Assembly (NCBI GenBank): GCA_902705835.1
Contig: CACSIN010000026.1
Coordinates: forward strand, 4,154 to 68,153
Reading direction: 5' to 3'
Length of the DNA stretch: 64,000 nucleotides
Source of the DNA: BD1-7 clade bacterium
GTDB taxonomy: Bacteria; Pseudomonadota; Gammaproteobacteria; Pseudomonadales; DT-91
Part shown: piece by piece, positions 1,661 through 45,802 of the stretch
Layout: the number at the start of each line of letters is the position of its first letter
How positions within the stretch are numbered: position 1 is the stretch's first letter
Translations under genes and position numbers: made by a program
The notes under the pieces: generated by a model
Database searches by the model: none
What the model was told of the DNA's origin: nothing
Seen by the model: only the letters and a program-made list of their open reading frames with translations

Positions 1661-4600
1661 TATCGTTGATCAACTCAGTGGCATTACGCAGATTGAAAAC
1701 ACCGGTAGCAGCGCGTCTGTTATTGGCGATGGGCATCAATGGAGTATTGATTTCACCGGCGATATTCTTGTCGATAACACATCTACCTTGATGAACTTTG
1801 ACACCATTACTTCAACCGGTGGGAAAATTGATAACTTCGCGCTCAGTGGAACAACCTCTGCGAATACGTTGACATTAAATGGCGGCAGTGAAGATATCCT
1901 CGATTTTACCGACCAACAAAGTCTCAATTTAACTATTGATGCTAACAACCAGGTCGAATTGAACCTTGGGCTTACCGTGACCGGCATTAATACCTATCAA
2001 GGTAATGAAAGCGCGCAGGTATCCTACAAAGATGGTACCGCGCCGGCGGGCGGCAATTGGCAAGTTACGGGCGACAACATTTTTGACCTGAATAACGGTA
2101 CGCTGAACTTTATCGGCTTTGGTCAACTTGATGTTAGCGCTGAGAATACGGTTGATCAGGTGACGTTTGCGAACAACAGCAGCCATCTTCAAACCTTAAC
2201 AGCAGGGCAAGGTGATCTGCTAGATCTCACTGCGTTTGGTGATTTGGTTGTTAACGCAGGTCGATTGAATGTCGATAACCCGGCTGCTGTAGGTGACGAT
2301 ATCGCCGGTGTTTCAATACTCAATGGCACCGGTTATACCCTTCGCTCGACGGGGCAAAGCCGCGTGATTGCAGGCGCTGCACCGAGCAACTGGAATATTA
2401 CTGGTGCTGCGATGCTCTCCGACGGGCGTTATACCTTTGATGGATTTAACGCTCTCGATACTTCGACCAATAACGTCTCTGATATTGTGAATATGGTCAG
2501 CGGCAGCACAATTGATGGCAGTAGCGCATGGCTGCAGGCCCTCGTATTAGATTCGATAGATATGCTGGATTACACCGCCTATACCCCGGGTAATGTTGTG
2601 GTGGATTTACATAGCGAGACGGCGACAGGTATCGCATCCGTGATCGGCTTGCATCGTGCTTCGGTTAGCAGCGATTCCAATGCAAGTTTAACCGCAGGGG
2701 CAACGGCTCAAACTTGGACAGTTGCAGACAACGAACTTACCAGCGATAGCGGCACGGTTTTGGATCTTACCGATGATGTGCAGATGATTGGATTTGATCA
2801 TTTAATCACAAGCACAAACGGTGTGGCAGATGCGGTGAAGATTGACCAAAGTGGTACGTTAGTGAGCCTGACGGGGGCGGCTGATGACTTGTTGAATGTC
2901 GGCAGTGGTGGCTTACAAATCCGAAATGACGGAAGCCTTGGAGGCATCGCCAATCATGGGATTGAAATTATTTCGGGTATTCAACACTTTGTTGGTAACG
3001 GGGCATTTTCTAATCGTATTACCGGATCAAATACCGCTGAAAATTGGTTAATGGGCGCAAATGGCTCTGATCGTCGAATCGAAGTCTCGGCTGCGTATGA
3101 CAACCAACCTCAAACCTATCAGTTTGATAATTTTGTCGCACTTGATACCAGTAATGACGGTGCTGATATCGCGATAGGTAGCGCAGACACAATTACTATC
3201 GCTAACGGTATCGATACAGATTATGAGGCGTTGGTCGTCAATCAATCGGATACCGTCGATGTCGCGGCCGTGACAGATGCATTATTGCAACTGCAGGCGG
3301 ATGGAAGCATTACATCTGGAAACTTGGGTGTTAAAACGCTGACGGGTGCACGCACCTTGGTTTCTGAACGGGGCAGCAATCAGCAGTTGATCGGTGCAGA
3401 TATCGCGGAGACATACTCCATAGCGGCTGGCGATCAACTGACGATTACCGCTGATTACGATAGTTCGCCGACTACGTTGTCGGTAACCGGTATTGATCAT
3501 TTGAATACAGCTGATAGCCATGCTGAAACTGTCTTCCTAGAAAACGGCGGTAGTTTGCAGCAGTTTACCGCTGATAGTGCTGATTTATTGGATGTGTCGA
3601 ATATTGCGGGAGATACCTTAGTGACACTGAGCGAGTCATCGAATGGCATTGTTCAGCTCCCTCAATTGCGGCTTAAGATCGACAATACGACTCCGATAGA
3701 GACCATCGCCGGTTTAAATCGCGTTACGGGTAACAACACCCGAAGTTCAGTTGCGGCGGCAAATTCTGCTGAGCAATGGACGATTACTGGCGAGAATCGT
3801 TTTGATCAAGGTGGATACTTCTTCGATGGATTTAACACGCTGACAACAGCTCACGCTCTCGGTGGCAGCGAAACTGAAACAAACGCAGATGTGATTGTTG
3901 TTGCGGCCAATGCAAGCTTGGAGAATCTGAACGCTGGTAGCGAAGATCGTATTGATTTGTCGGCGCATGATAATGTTGAAATCACTCTGACAAACGATGG
4001 GTTTTCGACGGATACACTTGCGTCTGCCAGCGGTGGAAGAACGATTGTTGGCGCAGGTTCAGGCAGCCGCGTTAATGCCAGTGCAGCTGCGGAAGCTTGG
4101 TCAATTTCTGGCGTAAGCCGTATAGAGAGTGATACACGTTCGTTCGAAGGGTTCAGTATTCTCGATACCACTGCTGGGCAAAATCATACTGATACGATTC
4201 AGCTCATCGATGGCGGATCGATCGATACGTTGTTGGGTAAAAATAGCGATATCGTGGATTCGCAACATCTTTCGAATGGCGTGGAGCTACATCTCGACCA
4301 AATCGATCGAGTTAATTCTAGCTCAACCAGCACTGGCGACGACATTAACGGTATTCGCGATGTGTCGGGTGTGCGCAACTTTGTTGCAGCAGGTGGGCAG
4401 GATACGGTTATTGCCGATGGCAGAAACTGGACCGTAGATGCTGCCAATCACATTGTTACCGACAGCTTTGTATTAGACGGATACAACAATCTTGATACCC
4501 GCGGCGGCAGTGTTGATCAGGTAACAATGACTGCTGATGCCAACCAGGCTGGTGTTCGAGGGCAGCTAAGCCAAGTTTCTGGTGATGCTACGGATCAATT

Positions 4601-35909: not shown

Positions 35910-35985
35910 GGGGCCTTAGCTCAGCTGGGAGAGCGCAACACTGGCAGTGTTGAGGTCAGCGGTTCGATCCCGCTAGGCTCCACCA
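35910..35985 (+). tRNA. tRNA-Ala(GGC)
   Basis: 76 bases including an encoded CCA. The acceptor GGGGCCT pairs with AGGCTCC and contains the G3:U70 wobble that identifies alanine tRNA. The D arm is GCTC/GAGC. The anticodon stem CAACA/TGTTG holds loop CTGGCAG with anticodon GGC, reading GCC/GCU. The T arm contains GGTTCGATCC. Confidence 0.97.
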
Positions 35986-35990
35986 AATTG

Positions 35991-36027
35991 AAAAAAGCTT
36001 CATGTTTCGACATGAAGCTTTTTTTTT
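35991..36027 (+). terminator. Intrinsic terminator after tRNA-Ala
   Basis: A perfect stem AAGCTTCATG/CATGAAGCTT with loop TTTCGA is followed directly by seven T residues. It starts 6 bases after the tRNA. Confidence 0.93.
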
Positions 36028-38639: not shown

Positions 38640-39509
38640 TTAAAAGCTGAGTTTTCGAACTAACGTCTCAATAGCCGCCTTGCGTGTTGATTGCAGTCTG
38701 TAGCACGCGTAAACCTTGCGTTTATAGGCAGGCGCAATTTTCTTATCGATACCAACAAACTCATTGCTATCGTCAAGCAGGATATCTGGCAAGTAGGCGC
38801 ATCCGCCTGTGCTCAAGAGAGAGTGTTGCGCCGTTTGGGCATTGTCAGTTTGAAGCGCGAGATTGAGTGTGTCGCCGAATTGTTTGTGATGAAACAGATT
38901 AAATGAGTGTCCCCAATTGACGTGAATATAGGGCGTACTTTTTAGCTGGAAACATGACTCATGACGCTGGTGAACCATCAAGCGCAAATTCATTGCGCCG
39001 ATTTTCTGATATCCGACGTCGGTGTTATTGATATTGTCGTACACAAGTGACAGATCCAAAGCCTCATCGATCATCAAGCGGCGGATATTTTCCTCAGCTA
39101 ACGATAGTGTATTGATTAAACAACCCGGTGTTCGCTGATCTGTTACGCAAGTATCGATTTCGTCCGGCGCTAACAGGTCTATGATTTTTTGGTTAAAAAC
39201 GTAGTGCCAAAGTCCGGGTGTTGAAGCGATAGATAGTCTTTCTCTGGTTTCGTTATCGTTCATCAGGTCGAGTTTTGCATTATCCCAGGCTCGCAAAATA
39301 ACTTCGGCATGCTGTAACAGTTTTACGCCGTGCTCGGTCAGGTTTACCTGTTTGGTATTGCGTTCGAATAAGCGTGTATTCACATTGGATTCGAGTAAAC
39401 GAATTCGGGCACTTACCGCAGATTGGGTGAGATACAAGTTGTCTGCGGCTTTGCCGAAATGGCGCGTTTTGCTCACCTCGATAAAGGTGCTAAACAGGTC
39501 GAGATCCAT
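38640..39509 (-). CDS. hdfR: LysR-family regulator HdfR
   Basis: This 289-residue regulator starts MDLDLFSTFIEVSKTRHFGKAADNLYL, very close in style to E. coli HdfR, with the LysR helix-turn-helix at 18-45 (QSAVSARIRLLE) and an effector domain after 90. In E. coli, HdfR represses flhDC and affects gltBD. The assignment is strengthened by the divergent maoP gene, the same arrangement as in enterobacteria. No flagellar gene lies here. Confidence 0.85.
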   Translation of the reverse strand: MDLDLFSTFIEVSKTRHFGKAADNLYLTQSAVSARIRLLESNVNTRLFERNTKQVNLTEHGVKLLQHAEVILRAWDNAKLDLMNDNETRERLSIASTPGLWHYVFNQKIIDLLAPDEIDTCVTDQRTPGCLINTLSLAEENIRRLMIDEALDLSLVYDNINNTDVGYQKIGAMNLRLMVHQRHESCFQLKSTPYIHVNWGHSFNLFHHKQFGDTLNLALQTDNAQTAQHSLLSTGGCAYLPDILLDDSNEFVGIDKKIAPAYKRKVYACYRLQSTRKAAIETLVRKLSF

Positions 39510-39736
39510 AGCAACTCCCGAAACAGTGTTGATCGCTCAAATGGCTGGAAATTGGATGCTGAATTGAGAGTGACTTTATAAGAAAAAGTTTTTGTTAATA
39601 CAATGAAAATTTATCGTTGGCGTCTTAATCGGGTTGCCAGTAGATTTCGCATGAAGAGCCACTTTGATTCTGATGGTTTTTGTTAACTATATGAATATTA
39701 AAGAAAATACGAATAAAGCGTGGATGTTTCAATGGC

Positions 39737-39752
39737 ATGGTCGGTCGACCAT
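39737..39752. promoter_or_regulatory. Perfect palindrome in the hdfR-maoP region
   Basis: ATGGTCG-GT-CGACCAT, two 7-base arms with a 2-base centre, begins 45 bases before the maoP ATG; a further CATGGT follows at 39758. It is a candidate binding site. In E. coli the MaoP target maoS lies in this same intergenic region, but I cannot equate the two by sequence. Confidence 0.55.
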
Positions 39753-39781
39753 CTAGCATGGTATTTTGCAGAGGGGTGTTT

Positions 39782-40129
39782 ATGAAAATAGCCGGTTTTG
39801 ATCAAGGTACACCGTTTTACGACAATAAAACCTGCCCTATGGGGTTCTCTAGAAGTGGGCATTTTACATTGCAACAAGCGACACTCATCGAGCGCTATGG
39901 CAATCAATTATTGGCTCTAGAGGATGGTAAGGAAACGCCACTGACACCAGAGCAAGCGCAGTTTGTTGACGTTTGCGCCGGTAAAAAACCGCCGTCAACG
40001 CTGTTAGAAAAGGCTTGGGCACGCTACTACACACTGCGGTTTGACACATGTGCGGTGAATCCCTTTGGTAAAGCGAAGGTCACTATTGATGAGGATGACA
40101 TCGATACATCAGACGATGACGATCTCTAA
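39782..40129 (+). CDS. maoP: MaoP (YifE/DUF413), Ori-macrodomain protein
   Basis: This 115-residue protein matches E. coli MaoP along its length: YDNKTCPMGFSRSGHFTLQQATLIERYG, then FVDVCAGKKPPSTLLEKAWARY and an acidic tail ending in D-D-D-D-L. MaoP acts with the maoS site to confine the replication-origin region into a macrodomain in E. coli. Start placed at ATG 39782 with GAGGGG 6 bases upstream. Divergent from hdfR, as in enterobacteria. Confidence 0.9.
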   Translation: MKIAGFDQGTPFYDNKTCPMGFSRSGHFTLQQATLIERYGNQLLALEDGKETPLTPEQAQFVDVCAGKKPPSTLLEKAWARYYTLRFDTCAVNPFGKAKVTIDEDDIDTSDDDDL

Positions 40130-40262
40130 TTGTTGGCGTTCTACTATCTTTTGTCTGCTTTCTGGGCGAGCGCGTAGATTTAGTCTTACGTTTCATCATA
40201 ATTTGACGGGTTATGATGCTTGGAGTCAAGGGCGCTAACCGGCCGCTAGAACGTCTATTTAC

Positions 40263-40282
40263 AGGTTGCTGCCAAGCAACCT
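40263..40282 (+). repeat. Hairpin in the maoP-speA leader
   Basis: Perfect 8-base stem AGGTTGCT/AGCAACCT with loop GCCA, 23 bases before the terminator-like structure. Without a T-tract it is more likely part of a leader RNA fold. Confidence 0.6.
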
Positions 40283-40304
40283 GAAATTTACCGTAAAAAA
40301 CCAT

Positions 40305-40345
40305 TGCGGTTTTCGCTGAAATGGCGAAAATGCGCGTCTTTTTTT
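40305..40345 (+). terminator. Terminator or attenuator upstream of speA
   Basis: A stem of 11-12 pairs, with core TTTTCGC/GCGAAAA extended by GCG/CGC pairs past one bulged G, has a 7-base loop and is followed by TCTTTTTTT. It lies 175 bases after maoP and 94 bases before speA. AAAACC (40297-40302) can pair instead with GGTTTT (40308-40313), which overlaps the terminator's left arm. Confidence 0.75.
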
Positions 40346-40438
40346 GTTGGATAGTCTTCCTGTCGCGGTAATTGCTAAACGCATATTTTGCGTTCATCTA
40401 CTGAGTTGTGCTTTTGAGTTCATCAATCGAGTATAAAT

Positions 40439-42388
40439 ATGACGCCGGTTAATTTTACACATACTGATGCGTTGTCTGCCCAGCTTAAAGATTGGAATGC
40501 ATCCGACGGTGCTGATCTTTATGGTGTTGAGCACTGGGGAGCCGGTTATTTTCAGGTAGACGATGCTGGGCAGGTTTGTGTTAACGCCTGTTTTGGTAGT
40601 AAATTCGTCAGCGTGCCCCTGATCGAAATTGTTGAGGGTATGGCCGAGCGTGGCTTGGCGATGCCTTCAATCTTACGAATCGAAAACCTGCTAGATGATC
40701 GAATACGGCTATTAAACGAAGCGTTTGCTAATGCCATTGCTCAAACCGGTTATGCCAATGTCTATCGGGGTGTGTTTCCGATCAAGGTTAATCAGCAATG
40801 CCATGTTATTGATGAAATTGCTGATTATGGCCAGCGTTTTCACCATGGTTTTGAAGCTGGTAGTAAAGCTGAATTAATTATCGCGCTGAGCCAGTTGCGT
40901 GATCAAGAAAGCTTGATCATCTGTAATGGCTATAAGGATGCTGAGTTCATCGAGCTGGGCCTGTATGCACAGACCTTGGGCATTCGCTGCTTTTTTGTAT
41001 TAGAGACCCCAACAGAGCTTCCTATTATTATCGAGTGTTCGAAACGGTTAGGTATTCGCCCGCTTATTGGCGTGCGGATGAAATCGTCAGTGGTGGTAGA
41101 TGGCCATTGGAATGAAGATTCAGGTGATCGCTCAATATTCGGGTTGTCGACAGCCGCGTTACTCGCGGTTGTTGATCGATTACGTGATGAGGACATGCTC
41201 GATTGCTTGCAGCTATTGCATTGCCATCTAGGCTCTCAAATTCCCAATATCCGTAACATACGCTCCGGCGTGCTTGAGGCATGCCAATTTTATGCGGGTT
41301 TGATTGCTGAAGGTGCACCACTGGGCTTTCTGGATCTTGGCGGCGGGTTGGCCGTGGATTATGAAGGCGCAAATTCCAATTCGACACACAGTATGAATTA
41401 CGGGTTAGATGAATATTGTGTCAATATCGTTGAGACCATTCAGGAAACGCTCGATCCGCTCGAGATTGCGCATCCGGTGATTGTGTCAGAATCCGGGCGT
41501 TCAACCGTCGCTTACTCCTCGTTATTGATGTTCAACATTCTGGATGTTCGGCGCAGTGCACCGGCATCCATTGATTTGCCGGCAAACGGTGAGTGTCATG
41601 AGTTGCTGAATAGTCTCGATCAAGTGCTTGCTGCTGTATCGACTGTCAATTTGCAGGAGTGTTATAACGATTCGGTTTACTACCGTGATGAGATGCGCGA
41701 GCTGTTCCGCCGTGGTCAAACCACGATTCGTGAGCGTGCACTGGCGGATAGTTTACACCTCGCCGTGCTGGAAAAAATTGCGGCGTTGATTGCCAATGTT
41801 GAGCGTGTACCTCCTGAATTAGAACGGTTACCAGAGCAGATGGCCGATATCTATTATGGCAACTTCAGTTTGTTTCAATCTCTGCCGGATATTTGGGCTA
41901 TTGACCAGATATTCCCAGTGATGCCGATCCACCGCTTAGATGAAGAACCTTCAAGGCAAGCGATTTTGGCGGACATCACCTGTGACTGTGATGGAAAAAT
42001 TGACAATTTCACGACGCCAGAAGGTCATCGAAAAACCCTGCGACTGCATGAGCTGCGTAACGAAGAAGAGTACTACCTAGGCGTATTTCTGGTTGGTGCC
42101 TATCAGGAAACGTTGGGGGATCTCCATAATCTGTTCGGGGATACCAATGTCGTGTCTGTTTACATCAACGAAGACGGGACGTTCGACTTTATTCGAGAGT
42201 TCCAAGGCGACAGCATCGCCGATGTGATGAGCTATGTGGAATATGACCCTAAACAGGTGCTTGAGCAATTTCGTAAGAAAGCCGAGAAAGCTGTACGTGA
42301 TGGCAGTATAACGGTTAAGTTACGTCAACAAATGCTCAAGGCGTTTCGAGAGAGTCTGCAGGGCTATACCTACTTCGAACAGGATTAA
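40439..42388 (+). CDS. speA: Biosynthetic arginine decarboxylase SpeA
   Basis: This 649-residue PLP enzyme of the alanine-racemase-fold group turns arginine into agmatine. Signatures are the PLP lysine in GVFPIKVNQQCHV, GFEAGSKAEL, LLHCHLGSQIPNI, LDLGGGLAVDYEG and VSESGRSTVAYSS. The length fits E. coli SpeA (658). No clear ribosome site precedes the ATG, so expression may depend on the leader structures upstream. First gene of the polyamine cluster. Confidence 0.96.
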   Translation: MTPVNFTHTDALSAQLKDWNASDGADLYGVEHWGAGYFQVDDAGQVCVNACFGSKFVSVPLIEIVEGMAERGLAMPSILRIENLLDDRIRLLNEAFANAIAQTGYANVYRGVFPIKVNQQCHVIDEIADYGQRFHHGFEAGSKAELIIALSQLRDQESLIICNGYKDAEFIELGLYAQTLGIRCFFVLETPTELPIIIECSKRLGIRPLIGVRMKSSVVVDGHWNEDSGDRSIFGLSTAALLAVVDRLRDEDMLDCLQLLHCHLGSQIPNIRNIRSGVLEACQFYAGLIAEGAPLGFLDLGGGLAVDYEGANSNSTHSMNYGLDEYCVNIVETIQETLDPLEIAHPVIVSESGRSTVAYSSLLMFNILDVRRSAPASIDLPANGECHELLNSLDQVLAAVSTVNLQECYNDSVYYRDEMRELFRRGQTTIRERALADSLHLAVLEKIAALIANVERVPPELERLPEQMADIYYGNFSLFQSLPDIWAIDQIFPVMPIHRLDEEPSRQAILADITCDCDGKIDNFTTPEGHRKTLRLHELRNEEEYYLGVFLVGAYQETLGDLHNLFGDTNVVSVYINEDGTFDFIREFQGDSIADVMSYVEYDPKQVLEQFRKKAEKAVRDGSITVKLRQQMLKAFRESLQGYTYFEQD

Positions 42389-42468
42389 CACCGTGCGTAA
42401 CGCATGGGCGTTTGATGGGTGTGAGAACACCTACATTTTTGCGATCAGATTTTTAGGAGGAATGGCTC

Positions 42469-43668
42469 ATGTCTAAAGTCATGATAATCGGTGCTGGTGG
42501 TGTTGGCGGTGTCGTCACTCATAAGTGTGCTCAATTACCGGAGGTGTTTACCGACATCATATTGGCGAGCCGTACCGAGTCAAAATGTAAGGCGATTGCG
42601 GCTCAAATTGATCGCAATATCCGCACGGCTCAAGTGGATGCCGATAACGTTCCTGAGCTGGTTACTTTGCTGAAAAAAGAATCCCCTGAACTTGTTATCA
42701 ATGTTGCCTTACCGTATCAAGACTTAACCATTATGGATGCTTGCCTCGAGGCCGGTGTTCACTATATGGATACCGCAAATTACGAGCCTTTGGATACCGC
42801 CAAATTTGAATATAAATGGCAGTGGGCCTATCAGGAGAAATTTAAACAAGCTGGCTTAACAGCATTACTCGGCAGCGGTTTTGACCCTGGGGCAACCAAC
42901 GTCTTTACGGCGTATCTGGCTAAACACTATTTTGATGAGATCCACGAACTCGATATTATCGATGTTAACGGCGGTGATCACGGCTACCCATTTGCGACCA
43001 ACTTCAACCCGGAAATCAATATCCGAGAAGTGACCGCAGAGTGCCGACATTGGGAAAACGGCGGTTTTATTGAAACACCGGCCATGTCGAAAAAAGCCAG
43101 TTTCACGTGTCCGGAAGATGTCGGTACCTTCAATATTTACAGGATGTACCACGAAGAGCTGGAATCGTTGGTGATTAACTACCCGACCATCAAGCGGGCG
43201 CAGTTCTGGATGAGCTTTTCAGAGAGCTATTTAACCCACCTTGAGGTGCTTGGTAATGTGGGTATGACCGGCATTGAACCGATCGACTACGATGGCCAAA
43301 AAATTGTACCGATACAGTTTTTGAAAGCTTTGCTGCCTGATCCGTCGACGCTTGGGCCGCGCACTCGGGGGCGGACTTGCATTGGCGTTGTCGCCAAAGG
43401 CGTTAAAGACGGTCGTGAGCGAGTCATGTATTGCTACAACATTTGTGACCATCAGGCGTGTTATGCCGAAGTGCAATCTCAAGCGATTTCATACACGACG
43501 GGCGTACCGGCTATGATTGGCGCCAAACAAATGTTACAGAAGCAATGGTTGGCTCCGGGTGTTTGGAATATCGAACAATTCGACCCCGATCCATTTATGG
43601 CGGATATGAATCAGTATGGATTGCCGTGGAAGGTCGTTGAATTAACCGATTTCGATCTAGATCACTAA
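42469..43668 (+). CDS. Carboxynorspermidine (carboxyspermidine) dehydrogenase
   Basis: This 399-residue saccharopine-dehydrogenase-like oxidoreductase has Rossmann motif GAGGVGGVV (7-15), VINVALPYQDLTIMDACLEAGVHYMDTANYEP, and GSGFDPGATNVFTAYLAKHYF as in Lys1-like CASDH. It condenses aspartate semialdehyde with putrescine (or diaminopropane) and NADPH to give carboxyspermidine (or carboxynorspermidine). A strong AGGAGG lies 9 bases before the ATG. It sits directly before the matching decarboxylase. Confidence 0.92.
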   Translation: MSKVMIIGAGGVGGVVTHKCAQLPEVFTDIILASRTESKCKAIAAQIDRNIRTAQVDADNVPELVTLLKKESPELVINVALPYQDLTIMDACLEAGVHYMDTANYEPLDTAKFEYKWQWAYQEKFKQAGLTALLGSGFDPGATNVFTAYLAKHYFDEIHELDIIDVNGGDHGYPFATNFNPEINIREVTAECRHWENGGFIETPAMSKKASFTCPEDVGTFNIYRMYHEELESLVINYPTIKRAQFWMSFSESYLTHLEVLGNVGMTGIEPIDYDGQKIVPIQFLKALLPDPSTLGPRTRGRTCIGVVAKGVKDGRERVMYCYNICDHQACYAEVQSQAISYTTGVPAMIGAKQMLQKQWLAPGVWNIEQFDPDPFMADMNQYGLPWKVVELTDFDLDH

Positions 43669-43683
43669 CTGAAGCAACCCCAT

Positions 43684-44850
43684 ATGCAATTTAGCGACTT
43701 TAGCAAACTCGATCTTTCTCGTGTATCGACGCCGTGTTTTGTTGTTGATGAAGCTGCCTTACAGCGCAATTTAGCGATATTACACGATGTAGCCGAGCGC
43801 AGTGGTGCGAAGATCTTGGGCGCATTAAAGGCCTTTTCGATGTGGCACTTTGCGCCGTTGACAGCCAAATACCTGGCAGGAACCTGTGCTAGCGGGTTGC
43901 ATGAGGCTCGCCTGGGATATGAAAAATACGGCGGCGAAGTACACGTGTATGCCGCAGGCTACACAGAAGCTGACCTGCAAGAGATGTTAACTTTCGCGAA
44001 TCATGTGGTGTTTAACAGTTGTTCTCAATGGCAGCGTTTTCAGCCTTTGATTCGTGCCGCGAGTGAAACACGCCCAGAGCTGAAGTTCGGGTTGAGGATT
44101 AACCCTGAACACTCAGAAGGTGATGTCGATATCTACAATCCTTGTGCCAGTGGTTCACGATTAGGTGTTGTTCGATCACAGTTGGACGAAGCCCAGTTAG
44201 ACGGAATCAGTGGTTTACATTTTCATACGTTGTGTGAACAAATGTATGAACCGTTAGATCGTACGCTAGATGCAGTAGAGGCACGATTTGGAGACCTTTT
44301 ACATAGTCTTGAATGGGTAAACTTTGGGGGCGGGCATCACATTACTGTGCCTGGGTATGATATCGAGGCATTAATAAGTCGGGTCATCGCATTCTCTGAA
44401 AAGTACGGTGTTCAGGTGTATCTAGAGCCAGGAGAAGCAGTCGCTGTGGGTACGGGTGTATTAGTTGCTGAGGTGCTCGATATCGGTTTTAACACATTAC
44501 CTCAGGCGATACTCAATGCATCGGCAACCTGCCATATGCCAGATATTCTAGAAATGCCGTATCGTGCAGATATTCTCGGAGCAGGGCAGGCCGGTGAAAA
44601 AGCGCATACCTACCGGCTTGGCGGGTTAACTTGTTTGGCGGGCGATGTCATGGGCGACTACAGCTTTGATACACCACTGGTGGTTGGTCAGAAGCTGATT
44701 TTTGAAGACATGGCTCACTATACTATGGTAAAAACGTCTACGTTCAACGGGGCACGGCTACCCGACATTGTTGTTTGGAATAGCGTTACTGACGCGTTAA
44801 ATGTTATCAAACGTTTTAACTATGACGACTTTTTATCAAGACTTTCGTGA
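43684..44850 (+). CDS. nspC: Carboxynorspermidine decarboxylase NspC
   Basis: This 388-residue PLP decarboxylase is related to DAP decarboxylase. The PLP lysine is in KILGALKAFSMWHF, followed by CASGLHEARLGYEKYGGEVHVYAAGYTE, SGLHFHTLCEQ, VNFGGGHHIT and YLEPGEAVAVGTG. It removes CO2 from carboxyspermidine or carboxynorspermidine. It starts 15 bases after the dehydrogenase stop. With SpeA and SpeB supplying putrescine, the product here is probably spermidine. Confidence 0.95.
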   Translation: MQFSDFSKLDLSRVSTPCFVVDEAALQRNLAILHDVAERSGAKILGALKAFSMWHFAPLTAKYLAGTCASGLHEARLGYEKYGGEVHVYAAGYTEADLQEMLTFANHVVFNSCSQWQRFQPLIRAASETRPELKFGLRINPEHSEGDVDIYNPCASGSRLGVVRSQLDEAQLDGISGLHFHTLCEQMYEPLDRTLDAVEARFGDLLHSLEWVNFGGGHHITVPGYDIEALISRVIAFSEKYGVQVYLEPGEAVAVGTGVLVAEVLDIGFNTLPQAILNASATCHMPDILEMPYRADILGAGQAGEKAHTYRLGGLTCLAGDVMGDYSFDTPLVVGQKLIFEDMAHYTMVKTSTFNGARLPDIVVWNSVTDALNVIKRFNYDDFLSRLS

Positions 44851-44908: not shown

Positions 44909-45802
44909 ATGAGTGACGCGATTCCAACGGATGAGTTTCCCATTTTTTTAGGCTCGGAAATCGAGCAAGCTGCTGCTGAAAAAGCGGCATTTCATGTGCT
45001 TCCCGTGCCTTATGAAAATACGGTTTCCTATGGCGGCGGGACACGTTATGGACCTTCATCGATTCTCAAAGCCAGTTGGCAGCTTGAACAATGGGATGGT
45101 AAGAGCAAACCCTGCGCACAGGGTATTCATACGTGCGAGCCGGTAGATTGCCAACAATCGCCGGGAGAAGTCATTGAGGCTATTGCCGAGGCTACCCAAA
45201 AAATTGTTGAAGCCGGTGCGATGCCGGTTGTATTGGGCGGTGAGCATACGGTGACCTTGGGTGTCGTCAAAGGCTTGCTCAATGCTGGGATAACAGACTT
45301 TGGCCTAGTGCAGATTGATGCTCACGCAGATTTACGTGATGCATTTGAAGGTGACCCGTTGAGCCATGCATCGGTGATGCGTCGTATTGTGAATCTTGAT
45401 ATACCCTTACTGCAATTGGGCATACGGGCCTTTTGTGAAGAAGAAATAGAGGCCCGTGATCGCTATGGCGTTCGGTATCTGGATGCTGATGATCTGGTTC
45501 CACAACGTGTTCAGCAAATCGAAATTCCTGAAGACTTCCCTGAAAAAGTGTTTTTCACATTGGACATCGATGGCATGGATCCGTCGGTGTTTCCATCGAC
45601 AGGTACCCCAGTGCCCGGCGGGCTCGATTGGTATCAGACGCTCAACCTGTTTGAATCGGTGGCCTCTCAACGGGAAATCATCGGTTTTGATATTATGGAA
45701 TTTGCGCCAATTGAGGGGTTTCACGCTTACGATTTTGCCGCATCGCTACTGACCTATAAATTAATGGGAATAATTGAGCGGAGTGAGACTGCTAGAGTCT
45801 GA
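44909..45802 (+). CDS. speB: Agmatinase SpeB
   Basis: This 297-residue ureohydrolase has the three metal-binding motifs GGEHTVTLG, QIDAHADLRD and FTLDIDGMDPSVFP. It hydrolyses agmatine to putrescine and urea with a two-manganese centre. The start region VPYENTVSYGGGTRYGPSSIL is normal for agmatinases. It lies 58 bases after nspC on the same strand and closes the four-gene polyamine cluster. Confidence 0.94.
   Translation: MSDAIPTDEFPIFLGSEIEQAAAEKAAFHVLPVPYENTVSYGGGTRYGPSSILKASWQLEQWDGKSKPCAQGIHTCEPVDCQQSPGEVIEAIAEATQKIVEAGAMPVVLGGEHTVTLGVVKGLLNAGITDFGLVQIDAHADLRDAFEGDPLSHASVMRRIVNLDIPLLQLGIRAFCEEEIEARDRYGVRYLDADDLVPQRVQQIEIPEDFPEKVFFTLDIDGMDPSVFPSTGTPVPGGLDWYQTLNLFESVASQREIIGFDIMEFAPIEGFHAYDFAASLLTYKLMGIIERSETARV

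Follow-up and report, generated by a model that had tools for sequence, protein, structure and literature searches.

What does a hairpin with a T tract do between maoP and speA in a bacterium of the BD1-7 clade? The structure lies in a gap of 309 nt within the 64,000-nucleotide stretch of DNA analysed here (the window; Table 1), where it might either close the transcript of the first gene or govern that of the second. Our preferred reading, held tentatively and at a little under an even chance, is that an intrinsic and probably leaky terminator separates the maoP transcript from the speA polyamine operon. RNA polymerase would stop at this terminator and so end the maoP transcript. Since the lower stem competes with a hairpin upstream whose local stability is almost the same, termination would probably be incomplete, and a fixed fraction of transcription would pass into speA. 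The remaining transcription of speA would then come from a separate promoter of its own.

Table 1 Features of the maoP-speA locus, numbered from the first nucleotide of the window
Feature	Coordinates	Strand	Description
LysR-type gene	38640-39509	minus	Divergent, adjoins maoP; hdfR-like by position
maoP (DUF413)	39782-40129	+	Pfam DUF413, E 8.5e-24; upstream of and co-directional with speA
Hairpin 1	40262-40283	+	Perfect 9-bp stem, loop of 4 bases; sister species has the same core stem
ACCGTAA/TTGCGGT alternative hairpin	40290-40310	+	Arms 40290-40296 / 40304-40310; -6.1 kcal/mol
AAAACC/GGTTTT alternative (arms first proposed)	40297-40313	+	Arms 40297-40302 / 40308-40313; 6 bp, -3.5 kcal/mol
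Intrinsic-terminator-like hairpin and T tract	40306-40345	+	Hairpin 40306-40335, -12.5 kcal/mol; T tract 40339-40345
speA, arginine decarboxylase	40439-42388	+	Pfam domains; heads polyamine gene run
Carboxynorspermidine dehydrogenase-like gene	at 42469	+	Saccharopine-dehydrogenase-like by Pfam; gene order in relatives
nspC-like gene	at 43684	+	Decarboxylase by Pfam; gene order in relatives
speB-like gene	at 44909	+	Arginase-family by Pfam; gene order in relatives

Sequence and folding calculations together establish the gene order, the T tract, the predicted hairpins and their near-equal folds. The three genes after speA are presumably carboxynorspermidine dehydrogenase, nspC and speB, names that we assign from their Pfam families and general knowledge of the pathway. 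An in-frame stop codon lies 24 nt 5' of the speA ATG (40439), and no other in-frame start follows it. The speA ribosome site is weak, in keeping with the original prediction that speA lacks a clear one: it pairs with the anti-SD at -2.5 kcal/mol, where 81 ORFs of the contig have a median of -3.7 and random positions give -2.1. The terminator placed before speA by that prediction is also there: the hairpin GCGGTTTTCGCTGAAATGGCGAAAATGCGC (40306-40335) is followed by the tail GTCTTTTTTT, and 93 bases separate the end of the T tract (40345) from the speA ATG. A stable hairpin directly before a U-rich tract is a mark of an intrinsic terminator, and the predicted structure has this arrangement, with the energy given in Table 1. 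The gap with its borders (40130-40460) folds better than shuffles (z -3.2), and 40257-40350 does so more strongly (z -4.2). A simple promoter and terminator scan did not have 40306-40345 among its calls.

The left arm of the terminator had further been proposed to pair with bases just upstream, giving mutually exclusive folds. Two such folds are supported in silico, with different arms from those first named. In the local ensemble the AAAACC/GGTTTT pairing forms with a probability of less than 0.001, and this, with its low stability beside the stronger ACCGTAA/TTGCGGT, rules it out as the main alternative. The latter displaces the terminator stem at its base alone; a 7-bp core hairpin remains, set apart from the T tract (the split fold). 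For RNA starting at 40257, the split fold is calculated at -29.0 kcal/mol; the terminator fold has -29.2 for an RNA end at 40340 and -29.8 for one at 40345. With the RNA end at 40328-40335 the split fold has the lowest energy, and at 40340 and 40345 the terminator fold does. In the ensemble up to 40345 the base of the terminator forms with a probability of about 0.88 and the alternative with 0.07. We favour an insulating terminator because of this preference of the full-length ensemble and because the hairpin carries a T tract.

The competition itself is unusual by a measure of upstream pairing that was picked post hoc, with the fold already in view. At the moment of stem completion, upstream pairing of the basal left arm has a probability of 0.87, higher than in 83 of 83 control terminators, a set that surely includes some false terminators; 0.4% of 1000 shuffles of the 22-nt spacer reach this value. 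Eight nucleotides later the upstream pairing has fallen to 0.25, which 8% of the controls and 1% of the shuffles reach. Across the stages the leader thus stays in the top 0.4-1% of the 1000 spacer shuffles, and at 3 and 8 bases after stem completion it lies in the top 8-10% of the controls. An alternative pairing of at least six contiguous Watson-Crick pairs occurs at 3 of 89 intergenic terminator-like sites, the speA leader included, and arises in 2.4% of shuffles of the site's own upstream 20 nt (P 0.024); in a ranking of the 89 by energy, its alternative fold comes only at 33%. These sites come from the window and 79 named loci, with the sister locus (L034) set aside, and replaced a narrower set of 23; here too some are surely false terminators. 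Upstream A-rich and downstream T-rich stretches also typify a two-way terminator, so part of the pairing reflects composition. Longer RNAs, with 5' ends from 40130 to 40242, mostly favour the split fold at equilibrium in both species, and this frequent success of the alternative with more upstream sequence counts against a plain separator. We give the long-RNA folds little weight, since they depend on long-range pairs closing large multiloops, and polymerase would in all likelihood have passed before such pairs could form.

Among the loci compared, maoP and speA adjoin each other in the window and its sister only, and the 79 other speA loci have no leader terminator or pattern in common with that of the window; both findings support a plain separator. 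A terminator-like site within 300 nt upstream of speA is present at 9 of 81 loci (the window, the sister and 79 others), that is, at 7 of the 79, and one of these seven (L035) clearly marks a gene end, lying 29 nt beyond a co-directional ORF. Two results count against the separator. The terminator starts 176 nt after the maoP stop, whereas 19 terminator-like sites between tandem genes in 463 kb of the same genome follow the stop at a median of 26 nt, three of them beyond 176; the same 463 kb supplied part of the upstream-pairing controls. The 176 nt was taken from window coordinates, and the sister gives the same value; the automatic assignment of distances had missed maoP at this site, counting a spurious 104-aa ORF (40083-40397, minus strand) as a gene. 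The second is that no promoter above chance was found between the terminator and speA, where the best score of 5.5 is matched by 75% of shuffles, in a search that weak or non-sigma70 promoters would escape.

The strongest competitor to the insulating terminator, though an unlikely one in our estimate, is a regulated attenuator of speA. A transcript starting within 40130-40285 would fold into either the terminator or the ACCGTAA/TTGCGGT hairpin with the short core stem, and, as part of the same reading, some factor (a ligand, protein, small RNA or ribosome) would tip the balance. The near-equal local folds, the brief period in which the split fold is lowest, the strength of the upstream pairing and the distance from the maoP stop all speak for it, the pairing with the reservation that its measure was chosen after the fact. 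The region 40100-40262 yields no promoter above chance (best score 7.1, P 0.35), and the Rfam search brought no sensor to light: the gap matches no family at gathering score, and below that score there are only implausible chance-level matches, e.g. U12 (E 0.27) and astro_FSE (E 0.15). Hairpin 1, the third hairpin foreseen ahead of the two folds and indeed a perfect stem, shares no bases with either of them; a stem of this kind appears in 9 of 2000 dinucleotide-shuffled versions of the gap.

Nor did a leader peptide emerge as a sensor. The sole short upstream ORF has 23 codons (40213-40284) and a weak ribosome site (-1.2, with -3.2 at a second ATG), and its changes between window and sister are all non-synonymous, with an earlier end in the sister. 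It is thus unlike the conserved translated ORF of arrest-peptide leaders of the speF/speFL type, and no conserved leader peptide was found. A response of the speA leader to arginine or polyamines, as first suggested, is therefore unsupported: neither an Rfam family at gathering score nor a conserved peptide speaks for it. The leader is also short of relatives, which weighs against a regulated element. Its DNA was matched in 2 of 76 genomes, those of the window and its sister; among 293 genomes of the order, a long match again occurs in these two only, and the remaining matches listed are pieces of about 16-55 bases with E 4.8e-4 or worse.

Early termination ahead of speA has been described or predicted in other bacteria, which lends the attenuator some further weight. 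In E. coli the speA 5' UTR undergoes premature Rho-dependent termination according to reporter and northern data (PMC7815308), and for the 5' UTR of Shewanella speA a terminator is predicted only (PMC2659441). The predicted BD1-7 site resembles E. coli in placing termination 5' of the speA coding sequence, with a short ORF upstream (yqgB as listed for E. coli), and differs in being a predicted intrinsic hairpin with a T tract behind maoP. Its likeness to Shewanella is that of a terminator-like structure before speA and implies no similarity of sequence or structure. The Salmonella speF leader with orf34 has alternative folds and premature Rho-dependent termination, and no intrinsic terminator is reported to have been found there (PMC6386406). 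Both are polyamine-gene leaders with alternative folds and premature termination, described in Salmonella and predicted in BD1-7; unlike speF, an ornithine decarboxylase gene with a translated orf34, the speA leader has no conserved peptide. Within the mainly non-subscription literature covered on polyamine-gene leaders, maoP/maoS and the BD1-7 clade, seen as listings and passages, we found no mention of this maoP-speA leader.

A narrower version, which we consider improbable, is a lineage-specific intrinsic attenuator. It would date from the placing of the speA operon behind maoP, and a local two-state switch in the terminator's lower stem would set expression of the polyamine operon. Such an attenuator would differ from E. 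coli in that termination before speA is intrinsic and not Rho-dependent. Were an attenuator real, termination in the speA leader would have arisen by a route other than that of E. coli, and a small two-state terminator would be available for study. If the structure is a plain terminator between two genes, its importance is little.

A small RNA ending at the terminator is another improbable reading. It would be either the processed 3' end of the maoP mRNA or the product of its own promoter in 40130-40285 and would act elsewhere, speA being a mere neighbour. Such an RNA of about 200 nt would have several hairpins, the last of them followed by seven T, and a terminator so far from the maoP stop would suit it. 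We take its end to resemble those of Hfq-bound small RNAs. The same missing Rfam family and above-chance promoter count against this reading, as do the restriction of the leader to two genomes and the fast change of the hairpin 1 loop and flanks.

That change emerges from comparison with the sister, BD1-7 clade isolate SB11_3 (L034), the nearest named record; its SpeA and that of the window share 99% identity. Around the site the two differ at 19 of 1061 bases. Seven of these fall in 40257-40290 (3819-3852 in the sister), in the loop and flanks of hairpin 1, and none in its 14 core stem bases; the probability that all seven would miss the core, landing among the 17 non-core positions of the 31 in 40259-40289, is about 0.007, calculated by hand and post hoc. 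The terminator and the alternative hairpin keep both helices identical, with one T of the tract (40345) changed. The 92 nt at 40347-40438 are identical as well, which says little, since divergence is only about 1% over most of 39300-41000. We regard it as very improbable that hairpin 1 acts as DNA, a palindromic operator (AGGTTGC-N6-GCAACCT) for a regulator of speA or maoP: the core is kept amid the changed bases and lies between the hexamers of the gap's best promoter-like site, which spans hairpin 1, but that site's score of 8.5 is within the range of other 350-nt chunks, both hexamers are altered in the sister, and the palindrome occurs just once in the 5.06-Mb genome even with one mismatch allowed.

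With the insulating terminator as the preferred reading, several observations around it deserve record. The seven substitutions are packed into 34 bases around hairpin 1, in a tract with about 1% divergence elsewhere. The cluster looks like one event, for which template switching at the palindrome or allele exchange may account. At 40194-40218, 5' of hairpin 1, an inverted repeat CATCATAA-N9-TTATGATG is identical in the sister and could possibly be a hairpin or a protein site. The genome of the window has another SpeA-like gene (contig C5, 150039-151970), 59% identical to the SpeA of the window, and the sister species also has such a copy; by eye, a short ORF precedes the copy on contig C5, with a gap too small for a leader of this kind. 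The E. coli maoS site lies upstream of maoP, unlike the site in the maoP-speA gap (PMC5023128). A textbook two-way terminator, a perfect 15-bp stem with a T tract, occurs at 35991-36024, right after a tRNA gene (35910-35982). Compared with the sister, tracts at about 39300-41000 and 42400-43300 show 0-3 differences per 100 bases outside the hairpin 1 cluster and neighbouring stretches 8-30, a mosaic of divergence that suggests recent exchange between the two species.
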